Below, piece after piece: positions 1 to 33,040 of a DNA stretch of 48,492 nucleotides. This DNA is from Candidatus Moraniibacteriota bacterium (lineage in GTDB: Bacteria > Patescibacteriota > Minisyncoccia > Moranbacterales > UBA1568): positions 1 to 48,492 of the forward strand of contig CAITOC010000047.1 in NCBI GenBank assembly GCA_903893925.1, read 5' to 3'. The translations under genes were made by a program, and so were the position numbers. The notes beneath the pieces are model-generated. The model ran no database searches. It worked only from the letters and a program-made list of their open reading frames with translations, and was not told where the DNA came from. Positions within the stretch are counted from its first letter, which is position 1, and each line of letters opens with the position of its first letter.

Positions 1-87
1 ATCGCTACTAGAGGAGTACTAGAGGAGTTCGACTCCCTATAGGGAGTCGAACTCCTGAACGTAACAGTGATGTAGTTCATTTGGTAT
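1..87 (-). repeat. Dispersed palindromic repeat family, copy R1 (truncated by window start)
   Basis: Reverse complement reads ATACCAAATGAACTACATCACTGTTACGTTCAGGAGTTCGACTCCCTATAGGGAGTCGAACTCCTCTAGTACTCCTCTAGTAGCGAT. Same flanks as copies at 25872 and 32923. Perfect 34-nt palindrome at 23-56. Confidence 0.85.
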
Positions 88-1310: not shown

Positions 1311-1399
1311 GCTTATGTATTCAGGGGTTCGGCCCCGTGAATGCCGGGCGAGCTCCTCTGGTAGTGATATACAACACATCAAGTTATTTCAATATAAGC
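1311..1399 (+). repeat. Dispersed palindromic repeat family, copy R2 (diverged 5' end)
   Basis: TTCAGGGGTTCGGCCC...GGGCGAGCTCCTCTGGTAGTGATATACAACACATCAAGTTATTTCAATATAAGC. Shares the CTCCTCTxGxAGxGATATACAA right flank with the other copies; GCTTAT/ATAAGC inverted ends. Confidence 0.75.
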
Positions 1400-25844: not shown

Positions 25845-25871
25845 TGACGATTGTTCGCGAGTGAGCTTCTT

Positions 25872-25976
25872 ATACCAAATTAACTGAATCACTGTTACGT
25901 TCAGGAGTTCGACTCCCTCTAGGGAGTCGAACTCCTCTAGTAGCGATATACAAAAAATTACGTTATTTCGGTATTA
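25872..25976 (+). repeat. Dispersed palindromic repeat family, copy R3
   Basis: ATACCAAATTAACTGAATCACTGTTACGTTCAGGAGTTCGACTCCCTCTAGGGAGTCGAACTCCTCTAGTAGCGATATACAAAAAATTACGTTATTTCGGTATT. Near-perfect 34-nt palindrome at 25903-25936. Confidence 0.88.
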
Positions 25977-26081
25977 TGTCGAAAATAACTTGATCGTTGA
26001 ACATCGCTGCCGGAGAAGTTCGCCCCGAAAATGCTGGAGTAAACTCCCGATGTGACAGTGTTTTCGTCAACGTGGTATTAT
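25972..26081 (-). repeat. Dispersed palindromic repeat family, copy R4 (diverged), tail-to-tail with R3
   Basis: Reverse complement: ATACCACGTTGACGAAAACACTGTCACATCGGGAGTTTACTCC...GGGGCGAACTTCTCCGGCAGCGATGTTCAACGATCAAGTTATTTTCGACATAATA; aligns with both family flanks. Confidence 0.7.
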
Positions 26082-26099
26082 ACTGGTCCCAAGGTATGA

Positions 26100-27755
26100 A
26101 TGTCTATGAATACGAATGACTGTTCGAAGTTGAATATCCGGCGGATTCCGAAGCATATCTGGTTGCTCCTGTTGATTGTCTGCATCGGCGTGTTCTTGCG
26201 TACGTATCACTTCCACGACTGGCTGGAATTCAAGGGGGACCAGGCGCGCGACGCGAGCCTGGTCCAAGACGTGGTTGCGGGGAATGCCGAATGGCCCCTC
26301 ACGGGTCCCTTCATGTCCAATTCCGCCGCCAACAAGGACGAAACGTTCCATATCGGGCCTCTGTACTATTATTTTCAGATCGTTTCCGCACAAGTATTCG
26401 GCAATATCCCGGAATCATTGGCTTATCCCGATGTATTGTTCTCAATCCTTTCCTTACCGCTGTTCTACCTTTTCTTCAGGAAATACCTCGATCAGAAACT
26501 GTCTTTAGGCGTCACCTTCCTCTATGTGGTCTCCTTTTTTTTCGTGATGCATTCCCGGTTCGCGTGGAATTCCAATCTCATCCCGTGTTTCACCTTGCTC
26601 TTCCTCTTGTCCTTGTTCGAATTCGAATCGGGAGGAATCGCGGTCGGTTGGTTGTGGGCGGTCTTACTCGGTATCGCTCTTGGGGTCGGGGTGCAACTCC
26701 ATGCCATAACCATGATTATTTTTTCGGCCGTTACCGTCTTGTCAATCGGTCGTTCCATCTTCCGGAAACAATCGATCCCGTGGAAAAAATGGGCTGTGGT
26801 CTTCGCGGTGGCGCTCCTTTTGAATACGGGTCAGATTATCGGCGAAACGCAGACCGGCTTTTCCAATGCAAAGATATTCCTCGGTTACTTCACGAATACT
26901 CATCACGATACGTCCGCAAGCAATCAACCATGGAGCGACGCTCATGCGAGCCTCGTGAACGATATCGATTGCCATCTTGAGGCAAATCTCTATTTGTTTA
27001 CTTCCCTGGGTCAAGATCATTGTGTCTATTCCTTTGATGCCCTTTTGAGTGGGACGCGGAGAAATGCAATGAAAATTTTGTTTGAGACACCGCTGTTTTT
27101 CGGTGCCCTTTTCTCGATATTCGGTTTCGCCATGCTCGTGATCCGATGCGCTTCGGAAAAAGACGAGCGGAAGAGAATATGGCTTCGTATGATCGCCTGG
27201 TATATCGCTGTTTCGTTTTTGATCATGTTCCCCGTCGTCAAGGGGAGTCTGGAACTTCGGTATTTCAACTTTGCATTTTTTCTCCCATTCCTGTTCCTTG
27301 GGCTCCTTGCGGAACATGTGATGAGTCAAAAGAATACATGGCTTCTGTATACGGTTCTTTTGGCATTCCCGGCCATAGCCATGATCAATATCCTGTCATT
27401 GTCATCGGTGTATGACGAGCTCGTCCAAAAGGGCCGGATCTATTCACGCTCGGTCGTCCTCGATGAGATAGAACCGATAGCGACATACGTGGTCGCTCAT
27501 GCGGATGGACATACTACGATCTCTCTGTCAGGGAACTCCAAAATTTTGGATTATGCCTTTCATCCCCTAGTATATCTTGTCGCGCAATCCGGGAAGGAAC
27601 TCATCCGTGTCGGAGCCTCGAAAGTGGATGATGTGGCCCGTTCCGGACAGAAGGTATTCTTTGTGAGCACTACTCCTCCCGATCCGGCGGATGCTCCCGA
27701 GTATGGGGCGGTCGGAGAGAAGATATATGTATACGAGGTGAGAACGAACCAATGA
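26100..27755 (+). CDS. GT-C membrane glycosyltransferase, array paralog
   Basis: FLRTYHFHDWLEFKGDQARDASLV, HIGPLYYYFQIVSAQVFGNIPESLAYPDVLFSILSLP, DCHLEANLYLFTSLGQDHC. Confidence 0.86.
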   Translation: MSMNTNDCSKLNIRRIPKHIWLLLLIVCIGVFLRTYHFHDWLEFKGDQARDASLVQDVVAGNAEWPLTGPFMSNSAANKDETFHIGPLYYYFQIVSAQVFGNIPESLAYPDVLFSILSLPLFYLFFRKYLDQKLSLGVTFLYVVSFFFVMHSRFAWNSNLIPCFTLLFLLSLFEFESGGIAVGWLWAVLLGIALGVGVQLHAITMIIFSAVTVLSIGRSIFRKQSIPWKKWAVVFAVALLLNTGQIIGETQTGFSNAKIFLGYFTNTHHDTSASNQPWSDAHASLVNDIDCHLEANLYLFTSLGQDHCVYSFDALLSGTRRNAMKILFETPLFFGALFSIFGFAMLVIRCASEKDERKRIWLRMIAWYIAVSFLIMFPVVKGSLELRYFNFAFFLPFLFLGLLAEHVMSQKNTWLLYTVLLAFPAIAMINILSLSSVYDELVQKGRIYSRSVVLDEIEPIATYVVAHADGHTTISLSGNSKILDYAFHPLVYLVAQSGKELIRVGASKVDDVARSGQKVFFVSTTPPDPADAPEYGAVGEKIYVYEVRTNQ

Positions 27756-31037: not shown

Positions 31038-31070
31038 AGCACTTTTCGTCTGATTTTGGCTTCATTCGTC

Positions 31071-31169
31071 AGTTTGAAATGATGTGTTGTGTATATTGCA
31101 ACAGAAGGAGCTAGGCTCCGAATCGGATTTTAGCTCCTGAATGTAGGAGTGATTCAGTCAATTTGGTAT
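31071..31169 (-). repeat. Dispersed palindromic repeat family, copy R5
   Basis: Reverse complement: ATACCAAATTGACTGAATCACTCCTACATTCAGGAGCTAAAATCCGATTCGGAGCCTAGCTCCTTCTGTTGCAATATACACAACACATCATTTCAAACT. Same flanks, different palindromic core. Confidence 0.78.
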
Positions 31170-32886: not shown

Positions 32887-32922
32887 TATGTGCTGTCTCA
32901 AAAAGGTCCCGATACTGCGATA

Positions 32923-33040
32923 TAATACCAAATGAACTGAATCACTGTGACGTTCAGGAGTTCGCCCCTTCGAATGACGGGGCGAACTCCTCTGGCAGCG
33001 CGATATACAAGAAATCAAGATATTTCGGTATAATTTGGTA
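32923..33040 (+). repeat. Dispersed palindromic repeat family, copy R6
   Basis: ATACCAAATGAACTGAATCACTGTGACGTTCAGGAGTTCGCCCC...GGGGCGAACTCCTCTGGCAGCGCGATATACAAGAAATCAAGATATTTCGGTATAATTTGGTA. TACCAAAT/ATTTGGTA inverted ends. Confidence 0.88.

Follow-up and report, generated by a model that had tools for sequence, protein, structure and literature searches.

Conserved ends and exchanged palindromic cores in a repeat family of a Moranbacteria-like genome, probably a non-autonomous MITE

Results

Repeat copies and their surroundings in the window

The window (the whole stretch of 48,492 nucleotides analysed here) contains six copies, R1–R6, of an element of about 101 bp (TACCAAAT...ATTTCGGTA), which lie where a preliminary description of this DNA had placed them or within a few bases of it. 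R1 (positions 1–87, match 17–87, minus strand) is truncated by the contig end and is longer than the other copies through an additional 11-nt CTCCTCTAGTA unit on its right side, while R2 (1312–1395, plus strand) is a decayed copy with an intact right end whose left end is gone. The full-length R3 (about 25873–25973, plus strand; TACC...GGTA with a type B core) stands in tandem with the diverged R4 (about 25977–26077, minus strand) in the order TTA-R3-TTA-R4-TTA: the left target duplication of R3 occupies 25870–25872, the TTA at 25974–25976 is common to both copies, and the outer target duplication of R4 occupies 26078–26080 (all on the plus strand, the last two read directly). R5 (about 31066–31169, minus strand) is another diverged copy, its left end intact and its right end decayed, with the core AGGAGCTA...TAGCTCCT. 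R6 (about 32923–33033, plus strand) is full length, has TAA at each flank, and carries a type A core in which the central loop is reversed in orientation.

A larger repeat with CACCCCGGCATACGCGGGGCAGGCTACCCGAGG adjoins R1 (88–280; also L098:4364, L077:9533 and L070:8798), and its copies occur both with and without an inserted element. Short units have been added in tandem in the arms of some copies, CTCCTCTAGTA on one side and TTACGTTCAGGAG on the other (L031:6441, L032:7546, L038:4, L039:22 and window 1–27). Hexamers resembling promoter elements overlap R4 and R6 at their left ends (26052–26106 and 32922–32951), and the element end GGTA together with the target duplication can form an outward-reading TATAAT or TATTAT; across the region, promoter-like sites are no more numerous than chance would give. 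Between 12239 and 31037 lie consecutive ORFs of approximately 540–610 amino acids, several with a similar start (GVFLRTYHFHDWL and variants), a run that resembles tandem paralogous membrane proteins. Among named genomes, a protein from the window matches one of Candidatus Moranbacteria most closely (84% protein identity).

Ends, target duplications and empty sites

When copies were aligned with their flanks, similarity dropped abruptly beyond ATACC...GGTAT. Terminal inverted repeats are present, ATACC(R)AAAT at each end and imperfect further inward, and the outer pairs are formed in 86% of cells among 41 aligned copies. A T lies two places to the left of the element in 35 of 36 copies and an A two places to the right in 32 of 36, the base between being identical on both sides in 27 of the 36. 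The pattern amounts to a direct duplication of 3 bp, TNA, on either side of TACC...GGTA. In an independent set of 31 copies, whose flanks are common to no other copy, 24 have an exactly duplicated TNA and 27 agree in its middle base, against an expected fraction of 0.33 (P about 6e-10). A C preceded the target in 17 of these 31 and a G followed it in only eight; the exact duplication is missing in seven, probably through decay or recombination.

Empty paralogous sites were also found: a larger repeat is without the element in three of its copies, which run through one TTA or a remnant of it (TTTC-TTA-GAAATGG), while two other copies of this repeat contain the element, the right-hand TTA there now being TGA. 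Empty sites with one TTA are the pattern expected of a transposon. In the relative genome G004, flanks matched without the element at several places, in intergenic DNA too diverged for exact junctions.

Copy number and placement in the genome

The source genome comprises 1.18 Mb in 88 contigs and is 98% complete. With R3-R4 as the query, tens of further places were found on many contigs (E down to 1e-39), and a profile made from clear copies and run over 1.15 Mb gave 96 non-overlapping matches at E<0.01, of which 50 exceeded 50 bits and 41 were full length. Because many contigs, that of the window included, begin or end within a copy, these numbers are lower bounds. The genome thus holds at least 50 good copies, far above chance and many more than the six first noticed.

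The copies are dispersed and without coding capacity. Most are intergenic and some are nested within other repeats: 44 of 56 fall outside a simple ORF set that covers 85% of the genome, that is, within approximately 15% of it. Intergenic gaps of every orientation hold copies roughly proportionally, with no preference for convergent gaps. No match to the element was found in Rfam.

Distribution among relatives

A sequence-only model of the left end was run through 132 genomes of the order. It matched 52 places in the source genome itself, one in a congener and one in a further genome from a third family, as well as 2–17 places in each of the six genomes surveyed from a genus of another family, all of which matched. 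Among 387 genomes sampled from the class, matches occurred only in genomes already known to carry the element; an exact-pattern scan of GTDB genomes, a set that may exclude the source genome, found none, and no phage or plasmid record matched. The earlier suggestion that the element is specific to this lineage is partly right: its ends were found in two genera plus one other genome of the order, and in none of the remaining genomes of the class sample.

In the second genus the copies keep these ends and are of similar length, and TNA duplications surround nearly all of them, while their cores differ, reading GGAGGCTCAACCTCC, GGAGGCTCGACCTCC, GGAGGTTCAACCTCC, AGAGGCTAAGCCTCC or CGGAGCTAAGCTCCG with their complements. 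The ends are thus conserved across two families of the order, and the cores are not.

Search for the transposase

We searched the source genome and/or its relatives with the Pfam models PF01609, PF13359, PF13586 and PF13340 and with Y1, and recovered IS903-type, IS4-type and IS5-family elements, the last with GTATC ends, along with two Y1 genes. No autonomous element with the ends of the repeat, and thus no transposase of the kind the preliminary description had proposed to look for, was found in 1.15 Mb of the genome, in eight relatives or in the order sample; nor did the unpaired ends, most of which sit at contig ends, yield longer elements with a left end, a gene and a right end. The IS903-type and IS4-type elements were set aside since their ends differ, as was a DDE gene in the relative G052, whose ends are not those of the repeat.

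The IS5-family element of this genome has the ends TNA-GTATCTATCTCAAATCT and is cut by five contig ends; in a relative, a copy with both its ends has TAA at each flank, and its conceptual transposase scored 206 bits against an IS5-family model (cut-off 110). The repeat has the 3-bp TNA duplication of IS5-derived MITEs and does not have the ends of this element, which are GTATCTATCTCAAATCT. A second repeat family, with the ends TNA-GTATCTMTCTCAAATCT (for example L086, L087, L096 and L119), has these ends in common with an IS5-family transposase cut by contig ends (L016, L032, L083, L125 and L147). One of the two Y1 genes is a weak match to the REP-associated model (22.9 bits, cut-off 80), and in the sequence covered neither gene has a copy of the repeat closer than 3 kb.

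The palindromic core

The element folds far better than shuffled sequences. Among the 41 aligned copies, pairs form in 91% of the core cells and 86% of the outer ones; changes on both sides affect 12 pairs (6.2 in shuffles) and 42 cells (12.1 in shuffles), the covariation score was reached by none of 500 shuffles and by no slid pairing, and slid pairings were only 31–46% paired as against 89% for the true one. These controls do not remove the relatedness of the copies, and since the cores of different subfamilies differ in sequence, aligning them with one another is in part arbitrary. Even so, the observation that the palindrome changes sequence yet keeps its pairing is borne out: compensated changes, most of them between subfamilies, keep the core a near-perfect palindrome, and such changes are apparently commoner than independent mutation would give. 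Of the 24 copies in relatives, 22 have core stems of 14–16 perfect pairs, in at least five stem sequences.

Single copies, by contrast, decay mostly without compensation. Among core cells that depart from the consensus, 28 are one-sided and three two-sided and paired in type A (27 copies), and six are one-sided and four two-sided and paired in type B (eight copies).

The type A core reads AGGAGTTCG[CCCCGGCATTCGCGGGG]CGAACTCCT. A double-hairpin module, CG[CCCCGnnATnnCGGGG]CG[TCCGGCnnAnGCCGGA]CG in either order, occurs in the T-loop (between TTCG and A) of extra, partial or altered tRNA genes, several of which directly adjoin an intact tRNA gene, and one of its hairpins matches the type A core. 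Such modules lie near position 1500 in L043, L044, L045, L047, L048 and L051, at L226:10151, L230:7071, L240:15912 and L241:11861, and in the source genome at L022:2400 and L084:2095.

Discussion

The inverted repeats at its termini, the 3-bp TNA duplications, the empty sites and the scattering of copies over mainly intergenic DNA identify the element as a MITE, as the preliminary description had suggested. We consider it likely that R1–R6 are non-autonomous copies moved in trans by an IS5-type DDE transposase, with a core that is free to change. It is the TNA duplications that point to such an enzyme acting in trans, and because no autonomous element with the MITE's ends was recovered, the enzyme class, probably IS5-type, is assigned by the target duplication alone. 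MITEs whose parent has not survived are common, so that the failure to find a parent that encodes a transposase and shares the ends does not exclude membership. TNA duplications are typical of IS1031-type IS5 elements.

One candidate enzyme is that of the genome's own IS5-family element, which would have to act across families of ends. It resides in the same genome, its TNA duplication and the C before the target are alike, other repeats carry GTATCTATCTCAAATCT ends, and MITE copies are nested in repeats bearing IS5-family ends. Yet the ends differ (GTATCTATCTCAAATCT as opposed to TACCAAATTAACT), and the second genus has many MITE copies while such a transposase was not found there, so we regard this source as improbable. 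Far less credible is the REP/Y1 (IS200-type) origin raised earlier, in which a REP/BIME-like element would have been spread by a REP-associated Y1 tyrosine transposase using a single-strand hairpin. The strong hairpin, the GTAG beside the core and the two Y1 genes, one of them weakly REP-associated, would suit it; but in the sequence covered no copy flanks a RAYT gene or comes closer than 3 kb to a Y1 gene, the variable part of the element is its hairpin while the conserved ends lie outside it, and the 3-bp TNA duplications and single-TNA empty sites are foreign to IS200/IS605 transposition, which produces no target duplication.

Two further readings concern the core. That the hairpin is selected as an RNA, a transcription terminator or a cruciform binding site, with copies retained for function, would agree with the intergenic placement, with covariation above shuffles and with the 14–16-pair stems of at least five sequences in 22 of 24 relatives' copies. 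It is nonetheless a doubtful explanation: arm changes in type A are mostly uncompensated, no T-run follows a full core in the window (only a five-pair terminator-like site is called there, inside R5), convergent gaps are not preferred, and Rfam gave no match. The earlier statement that compensatory change implies selection on the hairpin was too strong, given that 28 of the 31 departing type A cells changed on one arm and three were compensated; for the same reason we reject the view that covariation proves a functional RNA. Selection acting on an RNA need not be invoked, as changes within copies are mostly uncompensated, and it is not implied, as copying from arm to arm can yield covariation between subfamilies. 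Somewhat unlikely, too, is a two-part transposon in which a central TTCG/CGAA site between the conserved ends docks another mobile hairpin, a very small one. With the same TTCG...CGA junctions, the type A hairpin also occurs in the T-loops of additional, incomplete tRNA copies in sister genomes; no copies with the intact AGGAGTTCGAACTCCT core were seen in close relatives. If this reading were true, cores would be swapped by insertion of palindromic units and not by drift with compensation.

Under the MITE interpretation that we favour, an IS5-type DDE transposase supplied in trans would recognise the ends and move the element, and the TNA remade at each end would offer a new target, from which tandem pairs such as R3-R4 would arise. 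The central palindrome would not be a transposase site and could change or be replaced. It may be kept because one arm templates the correction of the other, by hairpin extrusion and template switching during replication, and selection on the source copies that are active may contribute. Source copies would then stay palindromic through arm-to-arm copying, with or without selection, and inserted copies would drift; this is the simplest account of the cores.

Like the bacterial MITEs reviewed in PMC10969869, the element is short and geneless, with terminal inverted repeats, target duplications and many intergenic copies; its ends and sequence match no described family among those that could be checked, and its core palindrome is swapped from subfamily to subfamily. 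IS5-family IS and PHIS transposons have the same 3-bp TNA duplication, TNA and C-TNA-G targets being described for one group of the PHIS superfamily, whose members are related to IS5 (PMC4482050), whereas the MITE has no transposase gene and its ends are unlike those of the one IS5-family element in this genome. REP sequences with RAYT transposases (surveyed in PMC3733652) are also palindromic hairpins in many copies, but are 20–40 bp long, whereas this MITE has conserved ends outside the hairpin and a target duplication.

This is a new MITE family of a known kind, the unusual part being the palindromic cores exchanged between fixed ends. By description rather than sequence it can be likened to ERIC and Correia (NEMIS) elements, which are imperfect palindromes of approximately 100 bp, intergenic and dispersed, although Correia elements have a 2-bp TA duplication in place of TNA. 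We found no paper on MITEs in Patescibacteria or on transposable repeats in Moranbacteria, which is weak evidence of novelty in a search whose scope mostly excluded subscription papers. Moranbacteria-like Patescibacteria, which have very small genomes, hereby gain a clearly delimited, many-copy MITE family whose copies also break the assemblies of these genomes. Found in two or more families of a single bacterial order, with its ends fixed and its palindromic cores exchanged, this MITE family offers a natural test of what keeps palindrome arms complementary, whether selection or copying from arm to arm in replication.
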